From: Solibacillus sp. R5-41
GTDB taxonomy: Bacteria > Bacillota > Bacilli > Bacillales_A > Planococcaceae
Length of the DNA: 64,000 nucleotides
NCBI RefSeq assembly: GCF_002736105.1
Contig: NZ_CP024123.1
Coordinates: 2,844,001-2,908,000 of the forward strand
Direction of reading: 5' to 3'
Part shown: positions 14,713 to 60,662 of the stretch, one piece after another
How the letters are laid out: each line of letters starts with the position of its first letter
Numbering within the stretch: position 1 is the first letter of the stretch
Made by a program: the position numbers and the translations under genes
The notes under the pieces: generated by a model
The model's database searches: none
What the model was told of the DNA's origin: nothing
The model's input: only the letters and a program-made list of their open reading frames with translations

Positions 14713-14857
14713 AATTACACCTCGGCTAACTTTTGTCCAGTTTTTTTCGAGCTCGCTCGAAAAGCTCCCCTTAAAAATCTGTGATATCCGCCGAGGCATT
14801 GAGCCAACACGATGTTGGTCACTCAGGCGGTGCTGCACGATGCGGTGTTCTTAGCTT
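14713..14857. repeat. Dispersed modular repeat, copy A (family-1 core plus family-2 tail)
   Basis: 14713-14796 carries the degenerate AATTACACC end, then CAG-T7-CGAGCTCGCTCGA, a deleted middle, and TTAAAAATCTGTGATATCCGCCG. From 14797 it continues as the second module, AACACGATGTTGGTCACTCA through a GC-rich hairpin to about 14857. Compared by eye with copies near 28.3, 31.2, 37.8, 52.6 and 60.6 kb. It fills most of the gap between the serine hydrolase and the small membrane protein. Confidence 0.75.
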
Positions 14858-14957
14858 GAATACCCTATTCAGCTAGATTATTAATCTCCACTGAATAAAA
14901 TTGCATATTTGACATTCATCCCCACTTCTAGAAGGATGGGACACCTGCTGAAACAAG

Positions 14958-15260
14958 TTAATATCTCCTTTTTAAAACGCTTAAGATGATGGCTTGAAGA
15001 ATCATTAATCCTGTGAGTAAATACCAAATGGCTAACTTGTATGCATCATAACTTAGCGTGCCAATATAACTGTCATATAACTCAATTAAAAACCATCCAA
15101 AAGGCATTAAAGGAAATACGATACCGTACGATTTACTTGAAATGCTTTTTCCGCGCTCATCTTTATTCTCCTCACCCCATTCAAATTTTAATGAAATAAA
15201 CACGGCAATAAAAAATATTAATACATAAATAAGAGACAAACTCGTTGTAATAATCGCCAT
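14958..15260 (-). CDS. Small membrane protein, partner of an XRE regulator
   Basis: 100 residues with three hydrophobic segments (about 4-25, 45-65, 74-94) and a charged first loop containing EWGEENKDERGKSI. The pattern of a three-helix protein directly after a short XRE regulator is common in Firmicutes, but I cannot name the family. Two nt separate it from the upstream regulator gene, so the pair is one transcript. Function unknown. Confidence 0.72.
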   Translation of the reverse strand: MAIITTSLSLIYVLIFFIAVFISLKFEWGEENKDERGKSISSKSYGIVFPLMPFGWFLIELYDSYIGTLSYDAYKLAIWYLLTGLMILQAIILSVLKRRY

Positions 15261-15262
15261 AC

Positions 15263-15493
15263 TTACTTTTCCTCCTCTACTTCATATTGAAAAACTTCGT
15301 GTAAATCCACTCCAAACATGAGCGAGATTTCAAATGCTAATTTTAACGACGGATTGTATCTGTTTTTTTCAAGAGAAATAATTGTTTGTCTACTCACCCC
15401 CAATTTATCAGCCATCTCTTTTTGGGATAAGCCCCTTTCAGCCCTTAACACAACAATTCTATTTTGAATTTTTCTCTCGCCATTTATTAGCAT
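15263..15493 (-). CDS. Short XRE-family HTH regulator
   Basis: 76 residues, nearly all HTH: LRAERGLSQKEMADKLGVSR followed by QTIISLEKNRYNPSLKLA. These 65-80-residue Cro/CI-type proteins usually repress their own operon and act with the adjacent membrane protein gene. AGGAGG lies 8 nt before the ATG at 15493. The next gene starts 2 nt after its stop. Confidence 0.9.
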   Translation of the reverse strand: MLINGERKIQNRIVVLRAERGLSQKEMADKLGVSRQTIISLEKNRYNPSLKLAFEISLMFGVDLHEVFQYEVEEEK

Positions 15494-15646
15494 GCTCGAT
15501 TCCTCCTGACAAATTAAATGTAATATATTTTTTACCTTATGTAAAGAATATATTACCTAATAATTTGAAAATTCTAATTTTCCGACTTCGTCAATCAAAG
15601 TTCACAAACCCTGTCCAATAAATAACCAGAAAAAAGCCTCATGCGA

Positions 15647-15726
15647 AATTTCTCACATGAGACAACCTTTCATCAAACACTACTCTGTGAATACCAACGA
15701 ATTATAGTCAATCTTCACTATAATTC
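15647..15726. other. Two inverted repeats in an otherwise empty intergenic region
   Basis: The 336-nt gap 15494-15829 holds a hairpin CTCATG/CATGAG near 15650 and a perfect GAATTATAGT/ACTATAATTC dyad with 8-nt spacer at 15699-15726. The second is well placed to be an operator or attenuator upstream of the peroxidase gene. No gene is visible here. Confidence 0.4.
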
Positions 15727-15829
15727 AGTCACCTGAGGCATTAGGAAATCCTAATTTAAAAACAGACTTTTAGACTTCCAATATTCTTTTCGCTATAATA
15801 GAATATTATTACTTATACAGAGGTGTTTT

Positions 15830-16378
15830 ATGAGTGTTTATAATTATTTAGCGAAAAAGGCAAACGGTGACATTTTATCTATGCAGACGTATCGTGGAAA
15901 AGTTATGTTAATCACGAACACAGCGAGCCAATGTCAATTTACATACCAATATGAAGATTTGCAAAAGCTTTATGCAAAATACGCAGCACATGATTTTGAG
16001 ATATTGTCCTTCCCTTGCGATCAGTTTGGCAATCAAAATCCCGAAAGCGGTGCACAATCCGCAGCACAATGCATGGGTCAATTCGGAGTAACTTACCCGA
16101 TTTTTGACAAAGTGCAAGTGAATGGTGAAATGACGCATCCATTATTTAATTACTTAAAGCATGAAGTGGACGCACAACCAATGTCAAAAGACACGATGCA
16201 GCAAAAATTGCTGTACCACCGAATTGAAGAACAGTACCCTGATTATTTACTAGGACATAATATTCGTTGGAATTTCACAAAGTTTTTAGTAGATCAACAT
16301 GGCAAAGTGATTGCTCGATTTGAGCCAGATGCATCCATGCTTGATATTGAAAATGCGATTCAACAATTATTCGCTTGA
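15830..16378 (+). CDS. Glutathione peroxidase family, second copy
   Basis: 182 residues. Peroxidatic Cys35 in NTASQCQFT, FPCDQFGNQNP with the cysteine retained, Cys in AAQCMGQFGVTYP as candidate resolving residue, and RWNFTKF. An insertion of about 25 residues (near 118-148) before the RWNFTKF segment makes it longer than the 3035 paralogue. Likely a thioredoxin-dependent peroxidase in the cytoplasm. AGAGGTG lies upstream of the ATG. Single gene. Confidence 0.93.
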   Translation: MSVYNYLAKKANGDILSMQTYRGKVMLITNTASQCQFTYQYEDLQKLYAKYAAHDFEILSFPCDQFGNQNPESGAQSAAQCMGQFGVTYPIFDKVQVNGEMTHPLFNYLKHEVDAQPMSKDTMQQKLLYHRIEEQYPDYLLGHNIRWNFTKFLVDQHGKVIARFEPDASMLDIENAIQQLFA

Positions 16379-16504
16379 TTTGCAAAAAAGGAGCTGCCCA
16401 TATACGGAGTAGCTCACTTTTTCAATGTCATCATTTACACCGTAGGGTAATTCATAGTAAAGATCCAATAAAAAATAGCTTTACAATGGTCGTTTTTTCT
16501 CTAA

Positions 16505-16924
16505 CTATTTAGGTGTAAATTCTAATTCTTTCGGTGGCTCGCCTTTCTTATTCATCAATCGCATGCGAATCGGTTCAATTTTCAGCGTTAACATTTCGTC
16601 TTTAGTGCCGATAAAAATGCCTGAAAATAATTCTGCGAGCTTGTTTTTTATGCTCTCATCTTCAAACTCTGTCACTTTTCCTTCAATTTCTACATATGCA
16701 TCACCAAATCCGTTATTTTCATAGCCATATAAAATATGTGTATACGGATTTTTTTGCAGCTCTTCTACTTTTTCAGAATGTTTACTTGTGACCGTATATA
16801 ATACGAAGTCTTCATGCTGAAATGTCATATAGCGAGAATAAGGTTTACCATTCCTTACAGTAGCCATCGTCCCTATTTTTTCACGATTTAATACCTCTAG
16901 TATTTCATCACGTACAGAAGCCAT
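16505..16924 (-). CDS. Pyridoxamine 5'-phosphate oxidase-like flavin protein
   Basis: A split-barrel protein of about 139 residues resembling general stress protein 26: IGTMATVRNGKPYSRYMTF at the N-terminus (FMN-binding edge), a middle DAYVEIEGKV, and a terminal EPIRMRLM. Such proteins bind FMN or F420/heme and act as small oxidoreductases. I chose ATG 16924, with AAAGGA about 9 nt upstream, over the ATG 18 nt earlier. Stands alone. Confidence 0.85.
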   Translation of the reverse strand: MASVRDEILEVLNREKIGTMATVRNGKPYSRYMTFQHEDFVLYTVTSKHSEKVEELQKNPYTHILYGYENNGFGDAYVEIEGKVTEFEDESIKNKLAELFSGIFIGTKDEMLTLKIEPIRMRLMNKKGEPPKELEFTPK

Positions 16925-17105
16925 TTCATCCCATCCTTTCATGTTTCAATATTAACTTGCCCTTCCTTTCCTATATTAAACGGTTTTGTTTGAAAAATAA
17001 GAAATGAATGTAAGGATAGTGAAGCGAGCATTTTTATAATGAAAAAGATGAAAAATGGCGTAAAATGGCGCATTTCTATGATTCAAAAAGGATGGGAATG
17101 CACAT

Positions 17106-17147
17106 ATGATTGTTTGCGCATTAGGTGCAGAAGGCGTTCGATACTAA
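17106..17147 (+). other. Tiny ORF with ribosome binding site, probable remnant
   Basis: AAGGATGGG lies upstream of an ATG opening only 13 codons (ending GAEGVRY then TAA). A good start with so short a product suggests a deletion scar or a leader peptide. It is followed directly by the terminator at 17150. Confidence 0.2.
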
Positions 17148-17149
17148 AT

Positions 17150-17213
17150 AAAAGGCACTACACATCCATCGGTTCATCATCACTGTGAGAGCCGTCGACA
17201 TGTAGTGCCTTTT
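17150..17213. terminator. Terminator after chemoreceptor gene
   Basis: AAAAGGCACTACA...TGTAGTGCCTTTT arms with a 35-nt loop; functions in either direction. Confidence 0.7.
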
Positions 17214-17227
17214 ACAATGGATTTAAT

Positions 17228-18928
17228 TTACAGTCTAAATTGTTGCACCATTTCTTGTAGCTCCGAAGATAACTGACCTAGTGCATAGGCAGATTTCGTA
17301 ATTTCATCCATCGTTGCATTTTGCTCTTCTGCAGCAGCCGCAACCGTTTGTGCCTGATCAGACGAACGCTCAGATAAAGTAGAGACCTCGTTTAATTGTC
17401 CTTTTATACTTATTGTATTCGCACTTAGCTGTTCAATAATAGCCGAAATATTTTCTGTTTGTGTGGATACATTGCCAATCATCGAAGAAATACCTTGGAA
17501 ATTATCTTCTGATTTTTTCACAAGTACAATCCCTTCATTGACATTATTCGTCGATTTCTCCATCGCATTGACCGCTTCCATGACTTCTTTTTGAACCGAT
17601 ACAATGACCTCACGAATTTGATTGGCCGCAATTGAAGAATCTTCAGCTAATTTTCGAACCTCATCTGCTACTACCGCAAATCCTTTTCCGTATTCCCCAG
17701 CCCTTGCTGCCTCAATCGCTGCGTTTAATGCCAGTAAGTTTGTTTGATCTGCAATTGTTGTAATAAGACCTACAATTTGACTAATTTCTGTTGATTTCTC
17801 TCCTAATGATTGGATAATCTTCGATGTTGCATCAGAAGTGTTTTGGATAGTCTTCATTTGTTCCATTGCTTGATCCATCATAGATGCCCCAACAGATGTA
17901 TATTCTTTTGTAGAAACTGCTAAATCAAATACTGACTGAACAGACGAAGTAGCATGATCCATCCCTGTCACCATTTCTGAAATCGCATCGTTGCTCGTTC
18001 TTGCGCCCAGTACTTGTTGATCTGCCCCTTCCGAAACATTTACCATAGCAGCAGTAATTTGATCGGTTGCTTTACTTGTTTCTTCCGCACTCGCAGATAG
18101 CTCTTCAGAAGTTGCAGCAACCGTTTGTATATGGGTTTGTAATCCACCAATCAAGCCCTTCAGATTGGCTAGCATACTATTAAAATCCGTCCCTAATTGA
18201 CCGATTTCATCTTGATTTTTGATTGTTACTTGTTCAATCGTTAAATTACCATCCGCTAATTGCTTTACTTGATTTGAAAGCAATTCAACTGGTTTTTTAA
18301 TTACGCGAATAAAGAAAATAACAATGCTAATTATTAATAATAAGGCTAAAACACTTCCTACAACTAATATAATAACTGTAGTCTTAAATTCAGACATTCC
18401 TTCTTTGTGAATGTTTTCTGATTGTTTATCTAGTAAAGTGAGTAAGCCATTGATATTTTCTTGTACTGTTTCATAAAAAGTCATGGCTTCATAAGTTTTC
18501 TGTGTAGCTTGTTTTATTTGACCAGTATTGTTTAAACGAATGACCTCATTACTTAGCTCAACTACATTCATCCAGTTCGATTTAAACGTTTCATAATTGG
18601 CTTTTCCCTGTTCTGATACCACATAAACCTCATATGATTGCAAAGATTCGTCAACTTGCTTTTTTATCGCCTCGTACTCTTTAGTATATTTTTCTTTACT
18701 GGATTGATTTTTAGATAATAGATGCTGCTGAGTAATAATGTACATGCGGTCCGTTTCAGCATTTATTTTATTGAGTAAGTTTATTTCTGGTATAACATCA
18801 CTATTTAATGTTTTTGTATTTGAATTCAACGTAATGGCACTTCTAATTGATAGTACACTCATCAAAATTATTACTAGCATAATAATCGAAAACGATACCC
18901 CTAATTTTCTACCTATTGTCCACTTCAT
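17228..18928 (-). CDS. Methyl-accepting chemotaxis protein
   Basis: 566 residues. TM1 at about 10-31, a four-helix-bundle sensor (about 35-185), TM2 at about 185-208, HAMP to about 262, then a long coiled-coil signalling domain. Its hairpin tip includes [19 protein letters not shown], and [10 protein letters not shown] lies near the end. It senses outside and modulates CheA/CheW. No chemotaxis operon is adjacent, so the ligand is unknown. ATG 18928 has AGGAGGAAC upstream. Confidence 0.95.
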
Positions 18929-18953
18929 GACCTGTTCCTCCTAAGTATATTGA

Positions 18954-18983
18954 AAAGTAATAAAATTTTTTTATTATTACTTT
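18954..18983. promoter_or_regulatory. Inverted repeat upstream of chemoreceptor
   Basis: AAAAGTAATAA/TTATTACTTTT arms of 11 bp close to the start of the chemoreceptor gene. Either an operator or a terminator for upstream transcription; no evidence separates these. Confidence 0.35.
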
Positions 18984-19191
18984 TGATACATCGACAAAAA
19001 ATGTTGAATGTTTACCATTTAAAAAGAACTATTTAACAACCAAATTTTTCATAAAGGGCTTCTGAATAACTGAATTGTTTATTGCTTTATTTAAACTGAT
19101 ATGTACATCCAGTTTTGCCCCCACTCATCAATACACCACAAATCATAATAATTCATAAGATAGGATATTAGCTTGAATAGGAGGAATTCCA

Positions 19192-19593
19192 TTGTATTAT
19201 AATTATCATCCTTATTATGTAAATGCACAACATTATCCAATGTGGATGGCGGTAAACCAACCTTCTCCCTCGCCATTACCTCAGCATACAGCTATGCCGA
19301 CAACGAATAGCCCATATCCACCTGTCGATACACATAAGCTGAAAACTTCAGTTAAAAGCATGCAATCAATTATGCAACAGGCTCAATTGCTTACTACTAA
19401 AATTGCTGCTTCCGAACAATTTTCACATGACCTTATGAATGCTGCCCAACTTTCAAATAAAAAAGAAGTAGATCGTTTAATCACCTCGATCGGCGTTACA
19501 ATTCAATTCGAAACAAAATTCACACCCAGCGGCATTGAAGTTCGTTTCTTTGAAATTGCATGCTGTGGATTGACTGTCAATTTAGGATGGTAA
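19192..19593 (+). CDS. Unrecognised Tyr/Pro-rich protein
   Basis: 133 residues starting at TTG with AGGAGG 7-8 nt upstream. The first 50 residues are rich in Tyr, His, Pro and Met (MYYNYHPYYVNAQHYP), like many spore-coat or spore-surface proteins. The rest is a helical stretch and a terminal beta-like segment with CCGLTVNLGW. I do not recognise the family. A spore-associated role is a guess from composition. It has its own terminator and no operon partners. Confidence 0.65.
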   Translation: MYYNYHPYYVNAQHYPMWMAVNQPSPSPLPQHTAMPTTNSPYPPVDTHKLKTSVKSMQSIMQQAQLLTTKIAASEQFSHDLMNAAQLSNKKEVDRLITSIGVTIQFETKFTPSGIEVRFFEIACCGLTVNLGW

Positions 19594-19643
19594 GAGCTAA
19601 TGACATCTTGATAAATTGCGATTCTGCTTTTCCTAGTGAACGA

Positions 19644-19697
19644 AAAAGATTCCCCTCATCCATGGATAGGAATGGACGAGGGAAATCTTTTCTTTTA
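19644..19697 (+). terminator. Intrinsic terminator
   Basis: AAAAGATTCCCCTC with a near-complementary arm and TTTTCTTTT tail, 50 nt after the Tyr/Pro-rich gene. Confidence 0.75.
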
Positions 19698-20195
19698 TAC
19701 GTTTTGATAAGGTAGATTGTTTATTGGTGGACATTTACTTGTTTCTAACCAATTAATAATTTCTTTTATTTCTTCAAGCGAATAGCCTGTTAATAATGCT
19801 AACGCTTCTAAATCGAATCCATTTCTCAAACCATTTCGAATCGTTTCTATTTTCCCTTCCTCAACCCCTTCTTTTTTCCCTTCTTCTCTACCAATTTCAA
19901 TGCCCTATGTAATACCTTCATTCTTCCCCAAGTGTATCGGCGATTTTTGCTTCTTCATCTAACATATATTTTATCGGTATTGGTAGGCAAATATCGTTTC
20001 AGGGGTTTGACTCATGTTTTCCCACACAGTGAACGCTTCTGATAGATTTTCATCCTACATCTCGAGTCCCTCCAACTCTTTATAAATTCCTTCATAACCC
20101 CTTTTCTTGCGGGCATCGACCATACCGAGCAACAATAGCCAGCCTGCTAAAATATCATTTAATGGTTCTAGTAAAGAATGTAAAATCACCAATAT
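19698..20195 (-). pseudogene. Decayed Rpn/PD-(D/E)XK transposase-type gene
   Basis: On the minus strand, pieces in several frames read LEPLNDILAGWLLLLGMVDA, RKKRGYEGIYKELEGLEM, AFTVWENMSQTPETIFAYQY and, after breaks, REEGKKEGVEEGKIETIRNG. These match the middle and C-terminal parts of Rpn-family recombination-promoting nucleases (YhgA-like transposase_31). In-frame stops and frame changes occur near 20060, 19990 and 19905, and the N-terminal nuclease part is absent. Non-functional. Confidence 0.75.
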
Positions 20196-20200
20196 AAAAA

Positions 20201-20233
20201 CGTCTAATCAAATGTTAATACATTGATTAGACG
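20201..20233 (-). terminator. Terminator of the Ytr-like operon
   Basis: CGTCTAATCAA...TTGATTAGACG arms followed by T5 in the minus direction, 25 nt after the last gene of the operon. Confidence 0.8.
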
Positions 20234-20257
20234 CCAAGTTATCTAGTTGAAATCTTC

Positions 20258-21448: not shown

Positions 21449-21462
21449 TGTCATTCCTCCTA

Positions 21463-22293
21463 TCAAACTGTAATTTTATATTTTAGCAAATAGGACGCTA
21501 GCCAAATGGCAATTCCTAAAACGATGCTGCTTATTATGAATGCAATGGTCAATAGTTCAAGTGGATAAAAATAGTTCGGATAAAGGCTCATTAGAAATAT
21601 CGGAACAATCAAGACGAAAAATGACAACACCCCATAAACAATTGCAAAGAAAATACCTTTTAACCGAAAACTACGCTCTATTAAAATAGATGTAAAGAGC
21701 ACGGCTACACAGATTAAGCCGACTCCATAACTTAGGATGAACTTCATAAATGTTGTCGGATACAGCATTGTCCATAAATCAAAATAAAATAGCTCATAAA
21801 TCGAAAAGTTCGTTCGGTAATCTACTGGTATAATGCCATTCATAATTTGAAGTTCTATTGGGATTAAGATAAGTTGTAAAGCAATTAAGCCAAATACAAA
21901 CAGCAAAATTGTCGTCATTTTCGCAAAATAAATAGTCAACCGGTTTGTCGGCAATAGTAATAATCGATAAATAAATGTATTTTTTGCAAACCAATCCCGA
22001 TACCAAATGAAAAATACATACAGCATGAGAATGACGATGCACATGAATACTGGAAGCAAAGCCCATCCAGAATTCACAAATTGATCAAATGGAGAACCTC
22101 TATATCCCTCACCTATAAATTCACTAAAGGATAATTGATTTTCAAACATGATCCGCTTCGTATTTTCTAAATATGCTTTCGATTCAAAAATAACCCCAAT
22201 AATTTGGCTGACAATCGTCAATCCCATTATGATGACGTACAGTTTAAAAAATCGGTTCACCTCAAAATGAACAAGTTTCAAATAATTTTTCAT
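21463..22293 (-). CDS. ABC transporter permease, Ytr-like
   Basis: A membrane protein of 276 residues with about six helices. It overlaps the ATPase gene by four bases (ATGA), so synthesis is coupled. With the single ATPase it would form an exporter or a bacitracin/cell-wall-stress type ABC complex. It resembles permeases of ytr operons in position and topology, but sequence similarity is not something I can verify. Confidence 0.82.
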   Translation of the reverse strand: MKNYLKLVHFEVNRFFKLYVIIMGLTIVSQIIGVIFESKAYLENTKRIMFENQLSFSEFIGEGYRGSPFDQFVNSGWALLPVFMCIVILMLYVFFIWYRDWFAKNTFIYRLLLLPTNRLTIYFAKMTTILLFVFGLIALQLILIPIELQIMNGIIPVDYRTNFSIYELFYFDLWTMLYPTTFMKFILSYGVGLICVAVLFTSILIERSFRLKGIFFAIVYGVLSFFVLIVPIFLMSLYPNYFYPLELLTIAFIISSIVLGIAIWLASYLLKYKITV

Positions 22294-23365: not shown

Positions 23366-23392
23366 TACACTCAACTCCTTGAAATTCATTTT

Positions 23393-27175: not shown

Positions 27176-27404
27176 GCAAAAAGGCCATCCGCTACTAAAG
27201 GACGGAGAGCCGTGGTGCCACCTTCATTGACTACTGATTGTAACAATAGTCCACTTCATTACTCGTAACGTGAGTGCTACGGCACAGCATTTCCTCTGTG
27301 CAGCTAGAAAGTCCATTCATAAGCATTGTTTACTAACTTTCACCAACCGTTAGCTCTCTAAAAAATCAATGACTTACTACTCTTTTTCATCGTCGCTTTT
27401 ACTA
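27176..27404 (-). promoter_or_regulatory. T-box riboswitch, tryptophan type, upstream of trpE
   Basis: The minus-strand leader holds the T-box sequence AAGGTGGCACCACGG (27210-27224) followed by a terminator hairpin at 27183-27211 with a T5 run. Upstream, GAGAGCTAACGG and AAAGTTAG are stem-I features, and GAATGGAC near 27330 contains a UGG triplet followed by A that suits a Trp specifier. Uncharged tRNA-Trp would pair with the antiterminator and let trpEG be transcribed. Confidence 0.88.
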
Positions 27405-28253: not shown

Positions 28254-28264
28254 TCTACCTATCA

Positions 28265-28343
28265 TTTACGCCTCGGCTAAATTGCGTAAAAACGCAACGT
28301 CGTGCGTCAACGCGTGAGTGACCAACTTTGTGTTGGCACTAAG
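28265..28343. repeat. Dispersed modular repeat, copy B
   Basis: Starts with the family-1 end TTTACGCCTCGGCTAAATTGCGT, then goes directly into the family-2 module, whose complement reads AACACAAAGTTGGTCACTCA followed by a GC-rich hairpin. It begins one base after the mnmA stop codon and would form part of its 3' untranslated region. Confidence 0.7.
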
Positions 28344-31140: not shown

Positions 31141-31195
31141 CCTTTATCTTCATTCATCTCACCACTATAGTTGGTGAGATGAATGAAGATAAAGG
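31141..31195. repeat. 24-bp perfect inverted repeat between cymR and rarA
   Basis: CCTTTATCTTCATTCATCTCACCA at 31141-31164 is exactly complementary to 31172-31195, with a 7-nt loop. It lies in the cymR leader, between divergent genes where a terminator is not expected, and abuts repeat copy C. It could be transcribed as a very stable hairpin. Confidence 0.85.
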
Positions 31196-31280
31196 CTCCG
31201 GCGGATGTCACAGATTTTGAAGGGAGTTAATTGCGCTAGCGCAATTCAAAATCTGGACGCAATTACGCCAAGGCGTAATT
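31196..31280. repeat. Dispersed modular repeat, copy C
   Basis: Reads CTCCGGCGGATGTCACAGATTT, GAAGGGAG, then a perfect 18-bp palindrome AATTGCGCTAGCGCAATT (31229-31246), CAAAATCTGGACGC and AATTACGCCAAGGCGTAATT (31261-31280). Ends match copies D and E; the middle is replaced. Confidence 0.8.
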
Positions 31281-31369
31281 GATTTGCTTTATTATAGCAC
31301 AACTCCTTTTATTCCACTCGGAAATACTTTATGATTAATGCAAGAAATCACAAAAAGGGGCGAAAAGCA

Positions 31370-33987: not shown

Positions 33988-35445
33988 GTGATTGATGAAC
34001 TTAAGAAAAAAGACTTATACGAAAAAAACACTATTCTAATGATTGTCTATGGGATTGCTGCAAATTTAGGAGGTCTCGCACAATTTATTCTCGGTCGTCC
34101 AATCGGCGTGACACTCTTCCTATTTATTCCCGTTTTTATTGCGTTCATCTGTTTTGTATTACAGCGAAAGTTCTATTTATTACGACCGTATTTCCCATAC
34201 GTTGTTTTGCTTGCTGGGATTGTCACGATTTATGGTACGATTGTCACAAATAAAGTGACGCTCGCTACTATTATCTTAAGCTTTTTTGTCCTTATTTTAG
34301 GCAGCATTCATAACAAATTGACCGTTTTAGCATTTGGCTATATTGGCTCGACAATCGGTTTAATTTTTAATTTCACACTGGATACAGGCAGTTTTGCCGC
34401 CGATTTTGCAAATGTTTTTGTTACACAAACATTAATGGCGGTTGCTCTTCTTTTACAAGTTCGCCAAAACAAGAAAATGCTTGTCAATGTAGAGGGGCTC
34501 ATGGAAAATGCGAATGAGCGCGCTGTTCATGAACTTGCATTACATCAGCGGCTAGAAGCTTCCGTACAAGGGATTACATCAAAATTAGCGCTGATTACAG
34601 ATAGTTCGAATAACTCCAGCGCTTCACATCAACAAATGATGGCATCCATTAAAGAAGTGAGTGTCGGCTCTCATAAACAATCAGATTATGTTGGATCTAT
34701 CGTTCAAAATACAGCGGCCACTACATCCGAAATTGAATCTATTGTAGAAGAGCTTCGTGGCATTATTAATGATGCTGAACATGCAAGTAAAAGGGCTATG
34801 GACGGTACAGATGTCATGCACCGATTAAAAAATGAAATCGATTTATTTACCGACTTTTTTGGCGAGTTAAATACGTCATTCCAGTCCCTCTCAGAAAAAA
34901 TTACGGAAACAAATAATTTTGCCACGTCCATTCAAAAAATTACTGAGCAAACGAATTTGCTTGCATTAAATGCATCAATTGAAGCGGCTAGAGCTGGAGA
35001 ACATGGGAAAGGATTTGCTGTCGTGGCTGAAGAAATTCGAAAACTCGCGGGTATTACAGATGAAACTGTCAGCAAAATTGACCAAAACTTAGCGCAAGTA
35101 AATTTATTCAATGAAGAAACTTTGCATCGTCTACAAAAGGGAATCTCGCATATAACCAACCAGGTGCAAATGGTAACTCATTCGAATACAACGTTTACCG
35201 ATTTGTTTAGTGCTATGGAAAATTTACAACAAAGACTTGAGCAATTTTCAAGCGGTACCCACTCAATTGAAATGAATAGTAAATCCATTGAAATGGCAAC
35301 GAATGATTTTGCTGCGATTATTGAACAAAGCTCAGTTTCGATTGATGAGCTTAATATCGTGTTAGAAAAAATCAATCAGGATCAACATATGATTACACAA
35401 AATATCGAGGACACTTATCAGCAAGCACTTAAAATCATTGCTTAA
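33988..35445 (+). CDS. Membrane chemoreceptor-like protein without an outer sensor
   Basis: About 485 residues. Five to six closely spaced helices in the first 160 residues replace the usual TM-sensor-TM-HAMP part; then a coiled-coil MCP signalling domain with [20 protein letters not shown] and [12 protein letters not shown]. Such receptors sense within or near the membrane. I favour GTG 33988 (AAAGGAG at 8 nt) over ATG 33952, which would overlap that site. Single gene with terminator at 35477. Confidence 0.9.
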
Positions 35446-37717: not shown

Positions 37718-37747
37718 GTTAACTTGCTTCAGCAGAAGTAAGTTAAC
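37718..37747. terminator. Hairpin between ROK and asparaginase genes
   Basis: 13-base arms GTTAACTTGCTTC/GAAGTAAGTTAAC with one G-T pair and 4-nt loop, abutting repeat copy D. The T-run is poor, so termination is uncertain. Confidence 0.5.
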
Positions 37748-37895
37748 GCCCCGGCGGATGTCACAGATTTTTAAGGGAGGCCTGCGTGATGAAGGTCAGT
37801 TAGCCGTTGTCGCATGGACGCGACGAATTTAGGGCTAACATCCCCGACGAGCGAGCTCGAAAAAAATCTGGACGTAATTACGCTGAGGCGTAATT
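37748..37895. repeat. Dispersed modular repeat, copy D (full length)
   Basis: The complement reads AATTACGCCTCAGCGTAATT, CCAGATTTTTTTCGAGCTCG, GGGGATGTTAGCC, GTCGCGTCCATGCGAC, GGCTAACTGACC, TCACGCAGGCC, TTAAAAATCTGTGACATCCG and CCGGGG. Copy E matches it nearly base for base in the opposite orientation. Internal stems GTCGC/GCGAC, TTAGCC/GGCTAA and the CAGATTTTT/AAAATCTG arms predict a branched fold. It overlaps the last codons of the ROK gene. Confidence 0.88.
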
Positions 37896-39038
37896 AATTA
37901 CTTGCTTTTGAATTTGTAGTGCTGCCCCTTTCACAACACCAACTTTCGATTGGTTAGAAAATTGCAAATCAAAATGTTGATGAATTTCTGACCAAATATA
38001 CTGTGAGCACATGTCGCGAAGTTCTTGCTGGAAAAGTTCGTTATGTTCTACCATTTCACCGCTCACAATAATGGCTTCCGGCTCATACAAGCACGCCAAA
38101 TTATTAATAGCTGCCGCTAAGTACTTCGCCACATCCTGCTGAATTTTAAGCGCCCATTGTTCTTTCGAGATCATACTCATCGCTAATTGTTCGATTGAAT
38201 CGATATTTTCAGGCGCCCTTTTTAAGAGGGATCTTTCAGAAATATATAAGGATAAACAGCCTCGCTTGCCACAATGACACTGCTCACCTTCTCCATCTAA
38301 ATTGACGGTTATATGACTAATTTCACCTGCGCGATTATGCGTCCCCCGATAAAGTTCTCCATCTAATAAAATCGATGCCCCAATACCAGTACCTATGCCA
38401 ACTAAAATACAATTGGTAAACGTAGGGGCATACACATCGCCGATTTCAGCCAAAATTTGCATTTTTAATTCATTATCCACGACTATATCACAATCAAATC
38501 TTTCCTTTAAATCACTAGCAATTTTGCAATTTTTCCAAAGCAATTGCTCAGAGGAAAGAACGATCCCTTCGTCATGATTAATGACCCCCGGAATACCAAT
38601 CCCTATTCCTTGAAGTTTTTCTTTGGAAATGGCGTTCGCTTCTAGCAATTCATTGACACAATGCTGAATAATATCAAGCGCATCTTCATACCGATTTTTT
38701 ACGTTACATTTAACTTCTGTAAAGTCAATTAATTCACCGATAAAATCGACAATTCCTATTTTAATGACAAAGCTATCAATTTCGATGCCAATTGTAAATA
38801 AGGCATCGCCACGAAGATGAATGAGTGTTGGTCTTCTTCCGATTAACGTTTCTTCTGTTTGCCCCTCATACAAGAACCCCTCTAGTTCTAATTCTTGTAC
38901 AATTCTCGTTATTGTTGTTGGGCTCATTTTTGTATATTTGGATAATTGAATTCTGGAAACGGGTGCCATTTGGCGAATCGCATCTAAAACTATATATTTA
39001 TTTTGTTTTTTCATTTGCATTTGATCTTGCTTCTTCAA
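37878..39038 (-). CDS. ROK-family transcriptional repressor
   Basis: 386 residues. Winged helix at 15-70 (PVSRIQLSKYTKMSPTTITR), then a ROK sugar-kinase-like domain with GIGTGIGASILLDGELYRG, the GEISHITV loop and the zinc motif CHCGKRGCLSLY near 255. NagC/XylR-type: it represses until a sugar derivative binds. The TTG start has AGGGG upstream. The final residues INYASA and the stop come from the end palindrome of repeat copy D. It heads toward asparaginase and follows the oxidoreductase gene. Confidence 0.92.
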   Translation of the reverse strand: MKKQDQMQMKKQNKYIVLDAIRQMAPVSRIQLSKYTKMSPTTITRIVQELELEGFLYEGQTEETLIGRRPTLIHLRGDALFTIGIEIDSFVIKIGIVDFIGELIDFTEVKCNVKNRYEDALDIIQHCVNELLEANAISKEKLQGIGIGIPGVINHDEGIVLSSEQLLWKNCKIASDLKERFDCDIVVDNELKMQILAEIGDVYAPTFTNCILVGIGTGIGASILLDGELYRGTHNRAGEISHITVNLDGEGEQCHCGKRGCLSLYISERSLLKRAPENIDSIEQLAMSMISKEQWALKIQQDVAKYLAAAINNLACLYEPEAIIVSGEMVEHNELFQQELRDMCSQYIWSEIHQHFDLQFSNQSKVGVVKGAALQIQKQVINYASA

Positions 39039-50164: not shown

Positions 50165-50381
50165 AGGAAATTGACGAATCCCAATTATGCCGTTATGTTA
50201 CCAACATCGTTTTGATCCCACATTCTTGTAGGTGGGTGCCCTAGTCACTGCGTTAAACTTCCCGCTCCGTAAAAACTAATGGGGCATGTTTGCTACAGCG
50301 GTAATAAGAAGCTCCCAACGATATATTGTTCGGTCAAAAGCGTAAAATAACATTTCAATCGAACATCTTAGGATTCGTGTT
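50165..50381 (-). ncRNA. ssrS: 6S RNA
   Basis: On the minus strand the transcript contains CTTTTGACCGAAC (complement of 50328-50340). Copying it yields a product RNA starting GUUCGGUCAAAA, the pRNA start known for Bacillus subtilis 6S-1 RNA. The 5' segment CGAATCC pairs with GGATTCG near 50174-50182 to close a long helix, and CACCC...GGGTG-type pairing caps the far end. Length about 200-215 nt. A sigma-A promoter and a terminator frame it. It binds RNA polymerase and modulates growth-phase transcription. In B. subtilis the gene lies between aspS and yrvM, the same interval as here. Confidence 0.88.
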
Positions 50382-50387
50382 AAAAAT

Positions 50388-51910: not shown

Positions 51911-51921
51911 GATTGGAACAC

Positions 51922-52510: not shown

Positions 52511-52643
52511 GACTCAAGGACTTGAGGGACACAGCTTTGTTGTACAAGTTGTACTACCATCCGTGTCCTTGTACAAGCGCAAGGATAACACGACACTGGT
52601 CACTCATGCGTTGCCGCAGTACGTGGCGATATTATCCTAAGTT
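52511..52643. repeat. Dispersed modular repeat, copy G (family-2 module with local hairpins)
   Basis: 52586-52643 reads AACACGACACTGGTCACTCA, TGCGTTGCCGCAGTACG, then TATTATCCTAAGTT, aligning with copies A and B. The preceding 75 nt contain GGACAC/GTGTCC arms and two TTGTACAA palindromes. Lies between MarR and aspS; the rest of the 52351-52810 gap is empty. Confidence 0.7.
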
Positions 52644-52810
52644 CCACTAATATAATTCGGAATTCCGGTGCTTTCTGTAAAAAGTACGTCGCTACTATGG
52701 TAGGCAATACTTTCTAATTGAGATTTCCTATCTGAATAGCAAGAGTGAAATTTATTTTGGTTAATCGGTATGTTACAGGTTTTAGTTTGTGTACCCGGTG
52801 CAGAAAAAAA

Positions 52811-52846
52811 AAAGCGCAAAATCAACAATGTGATTTTGCGCTTTGT
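52811..52846 (-). terminator. Terminator of the hisS-aspS operon
   Basis: AAAGCGCAAAATCA/TGATTTTGCGCTTT arms and T10 on the minus strand. Confidence 0.88.
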
Positions 52847-52851
52847 ATAAA

Positions 52852-54627: not shown

Positions 54628-54645
54628 TTTTTATTCCTCCGCTTA

Positions 54646-55914
54646 CTATTTGTTTTCTAAAATATATTGAACAAGGTGACCAAACTCAATTTTTTGTTGA
54701 TCTCCAGTTGCCATTGCTTTCACATTCACTGCTTGCTCTTCAATCTCTGACTCACCCAGCACAATAACAAATTTTGCATTGGCACGATCGGCTGCTTTCA
54801 TTTGCGCCTTCATTTTGCGGTCTAAATAATCCATATCCGCTGAAATCCCTTTTGCACGGAATGAACTCACTAACTCTACTGCTTTTGTTTTCGCTTCTTC
54901 GCCCATTGCGACAACATACATATCTAAACCAGCTTGAATATCTAATGTCACACCTTCTGCTTCAAGTGCTAATAATAAACGTTCAATGGATAATGCGAAG
55001 CCAATACCCGGCATATCCGGACCACCAACTTCTTCCACTAAACCATTATAGCGACCACCACCACAGAGCGTCGTAATCGCACCGAAACCAGATGAAGTCG
55101 ACATAATTTCAAAAGCCGTGTGGTTATAATAATCTAATCCGCGCACTAAGTTTGGATCCACCTCATAAGAAATACCTAAAACGTCTAAATAACTTTTTAC
55201 TTGCTCAAAGTATTGTGCTGATTCCCCTGTTAAATAGTCCGTTAATGCAGGTGCTGTTGACATTAAGCTATGATCACGGTCCACTTTACAATCTAAAATA
55301 CGCAGTGGATTTTTCGCTAGGCGATTTTGGCAATCTGAACAAAATTCTCCGATAGACGGCTCAAAATGCTTAATCAATGCTGTACGGTGTGCATCGCGTG
55401 TTTCCTTATCACCTAATGAATTAATAACAAGCTTTAAATCTTTTAGCCCGACTGAACTGTACACATCCATTGCTAATGCAACCACTTCTGCATCAATCGC
55501 TGGATCCGCTGAACCAATCGCCTCTACACCGAACTGAACGAATTGACGATAGCGACCTGCTTGTTGACGCTCATAACGGAACATTGGACCTGAATAATAA
55601 AGCTTCACAGGTTGATCCGCTTGCCCATACATTTTATGTTCGACATAAGAGCGTACTGCCGAAGCCGTTCCCTCTGGACGTAATGTTAATGAACGTCCAC
55701 CACGGTCCTCAAACGTGTACATTTCTTTTTGAACTACATCTGTCGTTTCTCCAACGCTGCGCTGGAAAAGCTCTGTCGACTCAAAAATTGGTGTGCGCAG
55801 TTCGTTATATCGATATACATGACATAACTGTCGAATTTTCTCTTCAACTAATTGCCACTTTTCTGATTGTCCCGGTAAAATATCTTGCGTTCCTCTAGGT
55901 ACTTTAAAGCTCAT
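54646..55914 (-). CDS. hisS: Histidyl-tRNA synthetase
   Basis: About 422 residues, class IIa. Motif 1 region [15 protein letters not shown], motif 2 [14 protein letters not shown] and [15 protein letters not shown], histidine motifs [15 protein letters not shown] and [14 protein letters not shown], motif 3 [13 protein letters not shown] and a C-terminal anticodon domain. ATG 55914 has AAAGGGGAG upstream; the ORF opens 18 nt earlier. Confidence 0.97.
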
Positions 55915-55959
55915 TGCAAGCTCCCCTTTCATCTATGCCTCATGATTTTATCCATTAAA

Positions 55960-56244
55960 AAAAGCTCTCGCCCCTTGCAAAATAATTGCAAGGGACGAAA
56001 GCTCAATGATAACTTCCGCGGTTCCACCCTAATTGATGTATTGCTACATCCTCTCGAATTCGGATAACGGCCGATTCCGTCTTTCCCTACGATTTCAAAG
56101 TTGAAATTTCGGGAAAACGCCTCTCAAGTGTTGTTCACATGTTACATTCTGTAGGAAAGATTTCAGCCTGTGTCTTTCCCTCTCTTGTCAGCTTTGGTAA
56201 CTGCTACTTTTTTGGTCATTGGCATTGTTTCATTTGTTAAATTA
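55960..56244 (-). promoter_or_regulatory. T-box riboswitch upstream of hisS
   Basis: The T-box AGGGTGGAACCGCGG lies at 56016-56030 (minus). A terminator with 18-base near-perfect arms follows at 55963-56004, ending in T7. Upstream are stem-I features GAGAGGG and AAAGACACAGG. The specifier region has AACAACACTT with a CAC (His) triplet, though the exact codon is not certain. It controls hisS and aspS. Confidence 0.9.
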
Positions 56245-56250
56245 ACACTA

Positions 56251-56279
56251 ATCTTAATGATGTCCGCACCAGTTGTCAA
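56251..56279 (-). promoter_or_regulatory. Sigma-A promoter of the hisS T-box
   Basis: Consensus TTGACA (56279-56274) and TAAGAT (56256-56251) with 17-nt spacing. Confidence 0.8.
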
Positions 56280-56383
56280 CCATTTTAAAAAAACTATATA
56301 TTTTCTAGTACTTTTGATTTTATAATAGAGAGACCATATAAGTAAAATTGATGATAAAAAAATTATATTCTAGGAGAATAAAA

Positions 56384-58000
56384 ATGCGTAAAAGAAAATT
56401 AATGATAAGTCTCATCTTTCTACTTTTATTGACAACACTCTTCCCAAGCATGCCGACGATACATAATGTATTCGCAAATGACGAGGATCTCATTGTCAAT
56501 GCTGAGATTTTGTATTTACGTGAGGGACCTGGTTTATCTTATCCGATTATTGAGACGTTGCAAGATGGACAACCATTAACAGCGCTTTCTAAACAAGATG
56601 ACTGGATTCAAGTACGGGCTGGCGAGCTGGAAGGTTGGGTCGCTTCATGGCTTGTGAAATCATCCGAAAAACCTACCGCGGCATCTATTCAAAAAACGGT
56701 CATAGCGCAGGTGGATTCGTTAAATTTACGTGCAGAGCCTTCCCTTTCTGCTGCTATCTTAACAAAATTAGCGTCTGGAACAGAAGCACAATTTTTGAAA
56801 GAACAGCAAGATTGGGTTCAAATTCAGTACGGTGAGTATACCGGCTGGGTTTCGGCCAATTATGTGACGATCAATGATGCCACGGTGTTAGAAATGCCTG
56901 CTTCAAAAACGGAACAAAAAGAAGAGCCTAAAAATGCCTCAACAACATCAACATTGACTGAAAATGATCCGAATACGTTTACGATTACGGTCAATGAAGT
57001 AAATGTTCGAAAAAAAGCGGATTTAACGTCCAAAAAATTAGGAACTGCAAAAATTGGTCAGCAATTTAAAGTGATTAGCCGCGATCATAATTGGGTTCAA
57101 ATTGAGTATGAAAATAAGAAGAAAGGCTGGGTTTACAGCTTTTACGGCACGTTTACAAAGCAAGATTTGCAACAAGATTTGGAGAGCACAACGAAAGAAG
57201 CCGAGAAAGTTACGATTATTTATAATGGTACCAATTTACGCGAAGCAACCTCTACTGCGTCCAATGTCGTGGCTCGTGTAGATGCAGGGCAAACGTACCC
57301 CATTATCGAAACACAAGATGATTGGTACAAAATTGCACTAGAAGATGGACAAGAAGCGTACGTTGCCAATTGGGTTGTCACGACGAATACAGAGGTCATT
57401 CAAACTTCACGCGATAAGGAAAAAGATAAAGCAAAGCGTAAAAAGGGTTCACTAAAAGGGTTAACTATTGTTCTTGATGCAGGACATGGTGGCAATGACC
57501 GCGGGACAACAGGCGCAAGAGGCACCGATGAAAAGGATATTACGATCAAGACAGCCGAACTTTTGAAATCTAAGCTGCAAGCTGCTGGTGCAGACGTCAT
57601 TATGACACGTGAATCAGATGTTTTCATTGACCTTAGAAAGCGTGTTGCCGTTTCTCATCAAGCAGACGCCGATGCTTTTATTAGTATTCATTATGATGCG
57701 TTGGAAGATAGCTCTGTACACGGATTTACAACGTATTACACAAATGGCTATCAAAAAGAATTAGCTGAATATGTGCATGCGGGTATTGCCTCAAAAGTCA
57801 CTTTAAAGGATCGAGGCGCACGCTTTGGCGATTATTTAGTGCTACGAGAAAACCGACAAAATGCGATTTTACTAGAGCTTGGTTATTTAAGTAATCCTAC
57901 AGAGGAACGTGCGATTACGACGGATTATTATCGTGAACAAGCGACACTCGGAATTTATCAAGGATTACTGAACTACTTTGATGCACAATTAGATGAATAA
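56384..58000 (+). CDS. N-acetylmuramoyl-L-alanine amidase with four SH3b domains (YrvJ-like)
   Basis: About 538 residues. Signal peptide (about 1-32), then four bacterial SH3 repeats with YLREGPGLSYP, NLRAEPSLSA, NVRKKADLTSK and NLREATSTASN motifs, a charged linker, and an Amidase_3 domain with zinc ligands in LDAGHGGNDRGT, the Glu in DEKDITIK, SIHYDA and the catalytic ELGYLSNPTE. It cleaves muramoyl-alanine bonds at the wall. ATG 56384 has TAGGAG upstream. Divergent from hisS, as in B. subtilis. Confidence 0.94.
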   Translation: MRKRKLMISLIFLLLLTTLFPSMPTIHNVFANDEDLIVNAEILYLREGPGLSYPIIETLQDGQPLTALSKQDDWIQVRAGELEGWVASWLVKSSEKPTAASIQKTVIAQVDSLNLRAEPSLSAAILTKLASGTEAQFLKEQQDWVQIQYGEYTGWVSANYVTINDATVLEMPASKTEQKEEPKNASTTSTLTENDPNTFTITVNEVNVRKKADLTSKKLGTAKIGQQFKVISRDHNWVQIEYENKKKGWVYSFYGTFTKQDLQQDLESTTKEAEKVTIIYNGTNLREATSTASNVVARVDAGQTYPIIETQDDWYKIALEDGQEAYVANWVVTTNTEVIQTSRDKEKDKAKRKKGSLKGLTIVLDAGHGGNDRGTTGARGTDEKDITIKTAELLKSKLQAAGADVIMTRESDVFIDLRKRVAVSHQADADAFISIHYDALEDSSVHGFTTYYTNGYQKELAEYVHAGIASKVTLKDRGARFGDYLVLRENRQNAILLELGYLSNPTEERAITTDYYREQATLGIYQGLLNYFDAQLDE

Positions 58001-58002
58001 GC

Positions 58003-58039
58003 AAAAAGCCCCTTTTTATTAATTAAAAGGGGCTTTTTT
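58003..58039. terminator. Bidirectional terminator
   Basis: AAAAAGCCCCTTTT/AAAAGGGGCTTTTTT arms; between amidase and the convergent alcohol dehydrogenase. Confidence 0.85.
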
Positions 58040-58041
58040 CG

Positions 58042-59241
58042 TTACGCTTGAATCGTTTGATAAATATAAAACATTTCATCTTTATTCATAATTTTCGGTA
58101 CAGGATATAACGGATTCGCTTCATTCAATGCACGTTCAACCATTAAAGGGACATCGCGATTCACAATGCCTTCAATTTTCGTTGGAATGCCCATTCGTTC
58201 ATTTAATTGCTCAATTGCCTCGATGAAAAGACTAGCCTTTTTCTCTTCGCTGTCGCCAAATTGCCCTATGCCTACTATATTGGCTAACTCCGCTAATGGC
58301 TTCGCTGCTGAATCACCATAAAATTTTAGAACATGCGGTAAGATGACGGCATTCGCAAGTCCATGTGGCACATTATAAAAACCGCCTAATGTATGCGCAA
58401 TTGCATGTACATTGCCAACATAAGCACGCGTAAAGGCCAACCCCGCTAAATACGATGCCCGCTGCATTTGAGTTCGAGCAATTAAATCACTCCCATCTTC
58501 GTAAGCCTTATATAAATAGTTAAATATTATTTTGACCGCTTCTCGTGAAAATTTTCTCGTTTCTTCTGTATTGCTACGTCCTATATATGCTTCCACGGCG
58601 TGTGTCAAGGCGTCCATCCCCGTTGTCGATGTAATGCCTTTTGGTAAATTAATCGTTAATAATGGATCTAACACAGCATAATGAGGGATGAGTACCGGAT
58701 CCATAATGGCGAATTTTTCATATGTTTCACTATTTGATATGACTGAAGCAATCGTTCCTTCACTTCCAGTTCCCGCTGTTGTTGGTACGGCAATTAACGT
58801 TGGCATGTCTTTTCGAACTTTGAATAAGCCTTTCAATTGTGAGAGCTCTTTATCTGGTCGCGCAACTCTCGCTGCAATCGCTTTCGCACAGTCTATCGGT
58901 GAACCTCCGCCAAATGCAATAATCGCTTCACATTGCTCAACGTGATACAGCATCAATGCCTCTTCCACATTATGAATCGTTGGGTTTTGTACCGTTTCAT
59001 CGTATATCGTATAGTGAATTCCATCTGCATTGAATGCTTCTAGAAGTGGGTCCATTAGCTGTAATTTCGTAATTCCTTTATCCGTTACAATCAATACACG
59101 GTTATACTCGAGACCTTTTACTAATTCTGGTAGTTTTAACAGGCTATCTGGACCTTCTAACAGTACGGGCTTGCGCCAATTTAATAATTTCATCCCTACT
59201 TTCATGGAGCTTTGAAAAGTTCTACAATACGTTTGATACAT
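58042..59241 (-). CDS. Iron-containing alcohol dehydrogenase
   Basis: About 399 residues of the Fe-ADH (group III) family. GGGSPIDCAKAIAA near 111 binds NAD(P); PTTAGTGSE near 155; metal ligands Asp/His in TTGMDALTHAVEAYIG, FTRAYVGNVHAIAHTLGG and VPHGLANAVILPHV. It oxidises a primary alcohol or reduces an aldehyde. I chose ATG 59241, with AAAGGTG 9 nt upstream, over the ORF start 75 nt earlier. Confidence 0.93.
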   Translation of the reverse strand: MYQTYCRTFQSSMKVGMKLLNWRKPVLLEGPDSLLKLPELVKGLEYNRVLIVTDKGITKLQLMDPLLEAFNADGIHYTIYDETVQNPTIHNVEEALMLYHVEQCEAIIAFGGGSPIDCAKAIAARVARPDKELSQLKGLFKVRKDMPTLIAVPTTAGTGSEGTIASVISNSETYEKFAIMDPVLIPHYAVLDPLLTINLPKGITSTTGMDALTHAVEAYIGRSNTEETRKFSREAVKIIFNYLYKAYEDGSDLIARTQMQRASYLAGLAFTRAYVGNVHAIAHTLGGFYNVPHGLANAVILPHVLKFYGDSAAKPLAELANIVGIGQFGDSEEKKASLFIEAIEQLNERMGIPTKIEGIVNRDVPLMVERALNEANPLYPVPKIMNKDEMFYIYQTIQA

Positions 59242-59393
59242 ATAATCCGCACCTTTCCAAAAATTAGTATTTACTTTTTTATATACTAATTCCTCACTAT
59301 TATCAATACTTTCCATTCGCTAAATTTAGACATAAACGCTCATTACTTGGTTAATCGTCCTCATCAGAATTGGGCATTTTGGACGTAAAAAAA

Positions 59394-59420
59394 CGAATCC
59401 ACGTAAATGATGGATTCGCT
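59394..59420 (-). terminator. Terminator of the VWA-like gene
   Basis: CGAATCCA/TGGATTCG arms with T7 on the minus strand. Confidence 0.75.
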
Positions 59421-59424
59421 TAGT

Positions 59425-60210
59425 TTATTGTTCTGCAAATAATACTTTATCGGCAAATGAGATGGGCTGGTCTTCGAAGTCTTTTTCACTCATTGCAATG
59501 ACCGATACATCGATACGTAATTGTTTGAGTGTTTTTCCGATGTCGTTTTTAGAAAGGGCTGCCACATCTGTATAATGATTATCCGTAATAATGATGAGTT
59601 CTGCGTCGTTTTGAATTGGGCATTTCTGCAATAATTCCCGTGCTTTCATTAATGCAGGTAAAATTTGCGCCTCTCCTCCCTTATTCCCATCAATAAAATC
59701 GGAAAAAAGTTGCGGTTGTAAGTGGGCATGGTGGAAATAGAGCGGCTTTCCAACGGTTTGACCAAATGGAATAACCACTAAATCACGCTGTTGACGTGCA
59801 CACAAATTAAATATCGGCAAAATTGTCGCTTTACAAAAGGCTTGCATAGTTTTCATCGCATCCGATTGCTGGAGCGCAATGACGATGGGCGAATACATTT
59901 TTCCTTTTTGCCCAAACGGTACATAATAAATATTATCAGATACAATTGTTTGCTCTTTCATCAATTGACTATAGGTTTCCGGTGGTAATAAAACGTCCTT
60001 ATCTTGGATTTTAGGCATCATTGCTTCGAGTTCAACAATCGATTCTTGTAACGTACTGGCAATTACTACGATTTCTTTAAATTGCGCATTGTGTTGAAAA
60101 TGGGCGATAAATTGTTGCTGTTCCTGCTCATGTAAGGCCTGAAATGCGAAATGGCTATATAAAAAATGAAGAATCTCATCGGTTAATTGTGTATTCATAT
60201 TCTCTGTCAT
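59425..60210 (-). CDS. Von Willebrand factor A-like protein
   Basis: About 261 residues. Helical N-terminal 90 residues, then an alpha/beta domain: MYSPIVIALQQSDAMK near 110-125 takes the place of the MIDAS DxSxS strand, DLVVIPFGQTV is the next strand, and ELIIITDNHYTD the fourth. The DxSxS serines are not fully kept (QQSDAMK), so metal binding may be altered. AGGAGGG lies 7 nt before ATG 60210. Role unknown. Confidence 0.65.
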   Translation of the reverse strand: MTENMNTQLTDEILHFLYSHFAFQALHEQEQQQFIAHFQHNAQFKEIVVIASTLQESIVELEAMMPKIQDKDVLLPPETYSQLMKEQTIVSDNIYYVPFGQKGKMYSPIVIALQQSDAMKTMQAFCKATILPIFNLCARQQRDLVVIPFGQTVGKPLYFHHAHLQPQLFSDFIDGNKGGEAQILPALMKARELLQKCPIQNDAELIIITDNHYTDVAALSKNDIGKTLKQLRIDVSVIAMSEKDFEDQPISFADKVLFAEQ

Positions 60211-60372
60211 GCGAAACCCTCCTACAGTTTTTAATGAAACAAAATTAGTATACCGAAGTAATGCGCCGAAAAATAGCAATTCAAACCGAAAGTGAGCGAA
60301 AATAAGCGAATTACATCAAAAATGTGAAATGTCCCACTCAGGTATCCGTGTAATTTGATCACATGCAAAAAA

Positions 60373-60398
60373 ACGGCACCCAAAATTCAGATGCCGTT
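60373..60398 (-). terminator. Terminator downstream of repeat copy E
   Basis: AACGGCA/TGCCGTT arms and T7 on the minus strand. Transcripts from the 60705 gene that pass the first hairpin and copy E would end here. Confidence 0.7.
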
Positions 60399-60515
60399 CC
60401 ATACAAATTGCGTGTATGTAATTACGTTTCGGATTGAATCCCGCTGAATTCAATCCCTATTTGCCACTCACCCTAAAACTTATAGAAATAGGGATTTTTC
60501 GCTGATGCAAAAATC

Positions 60516-60662
60516 AATTACGCCAAGGCGTAATTGCGTCCAGATTTTTTTCGAGCTCGCTCATTGGGGATGTTAGCCTAAGTTCGTCGCGTCCATGCGA
60601 CAACGGCTAACTGACCTGCATCACGCAGGCCTCTCTTAAAAATCTGTGACATCCGCTGGGGG
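60516..60662. repeat. Dispersed modular repeat, copy E (full length)
   Basis: Starts with AATTACGCCAAGGCGTAATT (60516-60535), then CCAGATTTTTTTCGAGCTCG, GGGGATGTTAGCC, GTCGCGTCCATGCGAC, GGCTAACTGACC, CATCACGCAGGCC, TTAAAAATCTGTGACATCCG. Near-identical to the complement of copy D over about 145 nt. It abuts the hairpin at 60664-60710. Confidence 0.88.

Follow-up and report, generated by a model that had tools for sequence, protein, structure and literature searches.

The intergenic repeats described here were found in a window of 64,000 nt (the whole stretch of DNA that was analysed; positions 2,844,001 to 2,908,000 of contig NZ_CP024123.1) from Solibacillus sp. R5-41, whose genome is a single contig of 4.28 Mb. 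These repeats are probably BOX-like, modular and non-autonomous mobile hairpins organized on two levels, i.e. an outer element with fixed ends and an inner module hosted by it. The inner module is Bacillaceae-1, a family of the Rfam database (RF01690). Both modules are structured, their sites differ between related genomes, the outer boundaries are fixed, orthologous hosts contain differing interiors, and the guest is found in either orientation and in hosts of unrelated kinds. An earlier note on this DNA had recognized a modular family of structured repeats exchanging their interiors between fixed ends, a description supported by copies A, C, D and E (listed in the table below) as well as by orthologous pairs from a relative. 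Each copy named there was recovered with covariance models or by direct reading, further copies occur genome-wide, both modules covary and the ends are shared. The extents of the copies had been drawn too short, since A, C, D and E all reach further.

Copies A, D and E exceed the gathering score of RF01690 (release searched, Rfam 15; curated threshold, 35 bits), while the segment 52590-52651 attains only 29.6 bits and stays below it. The Rfam model is independent of the two covariance models constructed in this study. R1, for the inner module, was built from 51 sequences including E, A and D, with 52579-52656 and B not in the model, and detects these five with E-values from 3e-18 to 4e-6. R2, for the outer right end, was built from 57 sequences including C and A, with D and E not in the model, and detects these four with E-values from 5e-18 to 2e-12. 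The Solibacillus sp. R5-41 chromosome contains at least 103 RF01690 matches at E<=1e-3, 99 of which exceed the cut-off (150 of 532 candidates were scored). The family is present in all 16 genomes of the genus (3 to 107 copies each) and in at least 67 of 299 genomes of the class (Solibacillus sp. R5-41 included). In the same 299 genomes the outer module (model R2) was identified in at least 14, belonging to two families; both class-wide values are lower bounds, because stricter filters were applied and a limited number of candidates was scored. The host range of the outer element is narrow and that of the inner module wide.

Covariation was counted on structures that we specified ourselves rather than predicted (for the inner module that of Rfam with a closing stem added, for the outer module one drawn by eye). 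In the inner alignment (51 copies) 89.7% of cells are paired, with 117 double changes, whereas shuffles gave 39.6 and slid controls at most 23; RNAalifold predicted the last hairpin alone (6 pairs). The corresponding values for the outer module (57 copies) are 91.3%, and 58 double changes versus 12.7 and at most 19.

The outer element (about 80-300 nt) extends from a fixed left end, CTTG.TTCAGC, to a fixed right end, GGACGCAATTACGCCGAGGCGTAATTGAT, and carries hairpins close to both. Its right-end module has the form GGCGGATGTCACAGATTTTT ... AAAAATCTGGACGCAATTACGCCGAGGCGTAATTG; a variant, GGACAAGAGTTAGCC...GGCGTAATTG, in which a bulge interrupts the perfect palindrome, is found in copy A and many others. 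With up to 3 mismatches allowed, a 27-nt pattern of the right end produced 141 matches in the genome, a few near-palindromic places being counted on both strands, against 0 for the reversed pattern, so this end is not a product of chance. When copy E was used as a blastn query, both outer parts recurred elsewhere without the middle, and the middle recurred in either orientation. The outer element has no match in Rfam 15 and no description in the literature searched. The claim that the family was undescribed thus holds for the outer part only, the inner module being RF01690. The same literature contained no description of Bacillaceae-1 as mobile, and copy E gave no blastn match in either the plasmid or the phage collection. 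A 190-bp repeat of Bacillus subtilis (Kunst 1997) may belong to the same family; the literature searched yielded nothing on it.

The relationships among the copies proposed in the earlier note were largely upheld. Copies D and E, in opposite orientation, are 90% identical over 164 nt (blastn). A and C share their outer ends and differ in the middle, where C lacks the inner module and A has an extra left hairpin together with this module. B, described there as joining one end to another module, is a short outer element whose guest is degraded, and the fragment noticed at 61916 is a lone right-end palindrome.

Pairs of occupied and empty sites place the insertion of the outer element at TTTAA: read in the orientation of the element, an empty site continues from ...TTTAA directly into the right flank, and an occupied one reads TTTAA-CTTG...GTAATTGAT-flank. 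Among 60 copies with a recognizable left end (a sparse map), the left flank is TAA in 46 and TTAA in 33, the background frequency of TTAA being 0.9%. Neither inverted ends nor a target duplication were seen when the junctions of the outer element were read by eye, in agreement with the earlier view that this is not a simple inverted-repeat MITE (miniature inverted-repeat transposable element).

The closest relative among the genus genomes (G011) shares about 83% DNA identity with Solibacillus sp. R5-41; judged by a conserved 439-aa protein, the nearest named relative is Solibacillus merdavium (87% amino-acid identity; near-identical records were possibly omitted from this comparison). Copies A, B, C and E have no equivalent in G011 and stand out as clean additions (269, 92, 124 and 274 nt versus 16, 9, -12 and 1). 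The sites of B and C are empty in all 15 relatives: G011 and each of the 14 other genus genomes. Near B, another hairpin is present in G001 and G002; near C, G015 has another insert. In the case of D, the outer element is common to both genomes, and 8 nt in G011 take the place of the 70-nt inner module. The interiors also differ in two other orthologous outer elements, at 2960698 and 3279841.

A wider comparison covered 464 kb of Solibacillus sp. R5-41 and 476 kb of G011, with a colinear chain of 364 kb. It revealed 53 indels of 50-500 nt with little sequence opposite, 29 of which carry both outer ends by a loose test. This region contains 25 inner-module matches, 23 of them assessable, and none of the 23 has a counterpart at the orthologous site in G011; in the reverse direction the result was 0 of 9. 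The weakest match (2960536, E 0.037) is probably due to chance and is counted among the 23. At 15 of these sites G011 has at most 40 nt. Of 25 right-end modules, 23 were again assessable, and 7 lie within blocks aligned with G011, which suggests, on this sequence comparison, that outer elements outlast inner modules.

The inner module is regarded as a guest because hosts are known both with and without it. It occupies the outer element in both orientations, and the largest host class accounts for 40 of the 103 copies. In a second host repeat, comparison of copies with and without the guest indicates that it stands for about 6 nt of one hairpin arm, and in several copies one Bacillaceae-1 lies within another (by eye). 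Outside the genus, two loci (L150 and L291) have it within the same outer element; it was also found there in three or more other repeat types and adjoining tRNA, 5S and 23S genes (recognized by eye). In another genus it occupies 5 of the 16 rRNA operon (rrn) leaders read, three in sense and two in antisense orientation: in one genome (G029) 3 of 8 leaders have a sense module replacing a leader hairpin, and in two others (1 of 7 in G177, and the only one read in G253) an antisense module adjoins 16S.

Three such host repeat types of Bacillaceae-1 were observed at loci L275/L276 (a type shared by two families), L272/L273/L287 and L277. Some Lysinibacillus and Paenisporosarcina copies contain an additional insert (by eye); in Lysinibacillus this is a small hairpin of the GAAAGCGAAGCGGCAG type situated in loops or junctions (L146 19599-19710; L148 3934-4013 and 15342-15419).

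We propose the following model. The outer element is a chain of hairpins between fixed ends, inserted just 3' of TTTAA with no visible target duplication, and is probably moved in trans by an enzyme recognizing folded single-stranded DNA, one that may since have been lost. The inner element, about 70 nt long, is a closed unit made up of a closing stem, a two-helix arm and a second hairpin, and occurs within loops, or instead of part of a hairpin arm, in unrelated hosts. Template switching or gene conversion at hairpins may add or exchange such modules, since the fold of the host is not disturbed by a closed unit. Both modules would be mainly selfish, and neighbouring genes might be affected through the stable hairpins added to transcripts.

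Several observations weigh against this model. No enzyme driving the repeats was found, and across the 16 genus genomes copy number is uncorrelated with Y1 transposases or reverse transcriptases (Spearman -0.08 and -0.23, respectively). Several of the 29 indels with both ends appear doubtful by eye, and 8 of the 23 inner sites have in G011 either different or unaligned sequence exceeding 40 nt or, for the weakest match, an aligned block. The 7 aligned right ends imply that the turnover of the outer element is not fast. The difference at D would be explained equally by gain, loss or conversion, and at 3279841 the G011 copy may simply be truncated. Finally, Bacillaceae-1 was graded as 'certainly' RNA by its discoverers (PMC2864571, Table 1).

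A more radical possibility, which we regard as tentative, is that Bacillaceae-1 is a hairpin parasite complete in itself, about 70 nt long, copying itself in either orientation, with neither terminal nor target repeats, into any hairpins across the Bacilli, be they in other repeats, in further Bacillaceae-1 copies or in rRNA and tRNA spacers. Its target would then be nucleic-acid structure and not sequence; as its entry would replace part of one host arm, the folds of host and guest would both survive. The opposite view, that inner modules lack any mobility of their own and are swapped solely when outer elements undergo homologous recombination or gene conversion with one another, seems to us doubtful to a similar degree. 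It would account for the orthologous outer elements with differing interiors (D, 2960698 and 3279841) and for the 40 copies concentrated in the largest host class. However, the inner module also resides in hosts that do not share these ends (rrn leaders, tRNA spacers and several other repeats), and it is present in 67 of the 299 genomes versus 14 for the outer element.

The boundaries of the outer element recall single-strand transposition. It displays no inverted ends and no duplication, a fixed 5' target and subterminal hairpins, all of which are features of the IS200/IS605 family, and it could accordingly be a miniature element of this type (Y1 HUH). Strand bias is also compatible with this origin. 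With a dnaA-like frame near base 1 (by eye) and the GC skew of sampled parts flipping at about 2.0-2.2 Mb, 68 of 98 right ends (100 listed of the 141, minus one overlapping pair) are co-directional with replication (p 1.6e-4). So are 71 of 103 inner modules (p 1.5e-4), a proportion indistinguishable from a gene bias of 75% (p 0.17). We nevertheless consider such an origin unlikely, as the Solibacillus sp. R5-41 genome encodes no Y1_Tnp domain. This domain is present in 9 of the 16 genus genomes, yet the outer ends were detected at 0 of 18 Y1 loci scanned over about 1.5 kb on each side (20 were taken, two of which overlap one of the 18), and of the four genomes richest in these elements three lack Y1_Tnp and one has a copy interrupted by a stop. 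A tyrosine transposase, an option raised in the earlier note, and a REP-associated tyrosine transposase (RAYT) were rejected as drivers for the same two reasons, i.e. no Y1_Tnp in the genome and no shared ends at the 18 loci.

That Bacillaceae-1 is a trans-acting small RNA, with its copies forming a functional gene family, is in our judgement quite improbable. Besides the verdict of its discoverers, this explanation could invoke the strong covariation of the inner module and a proposal that the strand is uncertain and that the reverse strand, which matches the CsrA motif, acts as a CsrA sponge (PMC4333381). One locus outside the genus (L289, about 1501-1568) is a tandem array of hairpins with the conserved loops CGTCCTG and CATCCTG. 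Against it, none of the 23 assessable copies has an orthologous-site counterpart, and both orientations occur at one rRNA site. The family is characterized by a pair of hairpins with RUCCU loops. The hairpins covary in the inner alignment, yet many loops in Solibacillus sp. R5-41 are GTCGTG or ATCGTG, by which the GGA of the reverse strand is lost. Exceptions to pairing (G-T 34 versus A-C 49 in the inner module, 40 versus 40 in the outer) show no preference, so that no RNA strand stands out; the values for 100 tRNAs were 151 versus 0, an unfair control because the program seemingly brackets permitted pairs only. The earlier suggestion of a structured RNA is thus supported as regards covarying pairs, though not as regards an RNA strand.

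Spread through RNA, in which modules would be ligated or reverse-spliced into structured transcripts and then reverse-transcribed, is very improbable. Insertions bordering rRNA and tRNA genes fit this scenario, and where neighbouring genes run head to tail, 28 of 37 outer modules in the two genomes share the direction of the genes (p 0.0026), but the orientation data do not separate transcription bias from insertion bias. The antisense insertions at 16S are difficult to reconcile with it. RVT_1 was identified in 12 of the 16 genus genomes; two of the four richest have no match and the other two a single weak one each. A reverse transcriptase was rejected as the driver, RVT_1 being unrelated to copy number. 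A lone weak RVT_1 match was noted in a 473-aa frame (G000:C1:3572044-3572892).

The least credible explanation is that of REP/BIME elements, also considered in the earlier note, or simple inverted-repeat MITEs: the palindromes, high copy number and intergenic location (50 of 52 outer modules lie outside genes, by simple reading-frame calls) are as expected, but with no Y1_Tnp the genome has no RAYT, no terminal inverted repeats or target duplication were seen, and the modules are longer and nested.

Table 1. Repeats and their modules in the 64-kb window (positions are those of the window).
Feature	Positions	Strand	Details
Copy A, complete outer element: left hairpins, inner module, right-end module	14710..14957	-	ends CTTGTTTCAGC...GTAATTGAT, left flank TTAA; right-end module R2 14712-14794, E 1.1e-13 (A part of model)
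Inner module (Bacillaceae-1, RF01690) of A	14798..14875	-	Rfam 48.0 bits at 14804-14870; R1 E 9.6e-16 (A part of model)
Copy B, short outer element with degraded inner module	28261..28343	-	inner module on + strand, 28266-28342, R1 E 4e-6
Copy C, outer element without inner module	31148..31283	+	left hairpin ~31148-31195; right-end module 31198-31281, R2 98.4 bits (C part of model)
Copy D, outer element, inner module reversed	37723..37898	+	R2 37751-37896, E 2.9e-13 (D outside model)
Inner module (RF01690) of D	37775..37854	-	Rfam 45.2 bits; R1 E 8.3e-15 (D part of model)
Diverged inner module, apparently in a third kind of host (type III, by eye)	52511..52656	-	R1 52579-52656, E 6e-11
Copy E, outer element, inner module reversed; left boundary approximate	60513..~60705	-	R2 60515-60659, E 1.6e-12 (E outside model)
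Inner module (RF01690) of E	60557..60635	+	Rfam 59.4 bits; R1 E 3e-18 (E part of model)
Lone right-end palindrome, fragment	61915..61932	.	read directly from sequence

Beside copy E, a segment of about 90 nt with its own hairpin (~60425-60512) is likewise absent from G011. The window also contains two T-box leaders (27195-27402 and 55988-56228) and one 6S RNA (50174-50377), all ordinary and on the minus strand. A segment at ~34935-35050, part of a 497-aa reading frame, recurs with about 75-85% identity at many places in the genus genomes and presumably corresponds to a domain conserved within a family of paralogous genes.

If the proposed model is correct, what is listed as a bacterial 'RNA family' without a known function would have to be reclassified as a mobile module, and RNA predictions based solely on covariation would be read differently, since structure may be conserved as the unit of mobility. 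The nested hosts, for which close relatives and the sister rRNA operons of a single genome provide clear empty sites, offer a directly testable system for the insertion of hairpins into hairpins. For the copies preceding 16S rRNA, it may be asked whether they influence the processing of rRNA.

The inner module belongs to the Bacillaceae-1 RNA family (RF01690, Weinberg 2010), described as a noncoding RNA; here it appears as a mobile guest with an added closing stem, and the RUCCU loops are often missing. Of 17 new annotations in Bacillus subtilis, eight are Bacillaceae-1 structures (PMC8208703). Repeated stem-loop sequences of Bacillus, namely bcr1, Bhal-1 and Bant-1, are similar by description (PMC2267715). 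The right-end palindrome, which has CGTC on one side, resembles the CGTC-tagged REPs, but its stem is 10 bp instead of 8-9 and its loop 2 nt instead of 4-5, and the five phyla reported for those REPs do not include Bacillota (PMC3733652). The GC clusters of yeast mitochondria (PMC4478555), also compared by description, are short mobile hairpins subject to merging and shuffling; they differ in being organellar and in having short putative target duplications. Judged by architecture and not by sequence comparison, the closest described analogue is the BOX element of Streptococcus, whose boxA, boxB and boxC modules form structured repeats with variable interiors between fixed ends, insert into one another and are deemed parasitic (PMC3049150). 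BOX elements have inverted ends said to be IS-like, whereas none were seen in the repeats described here, whose guest ranges beyond a single host family.

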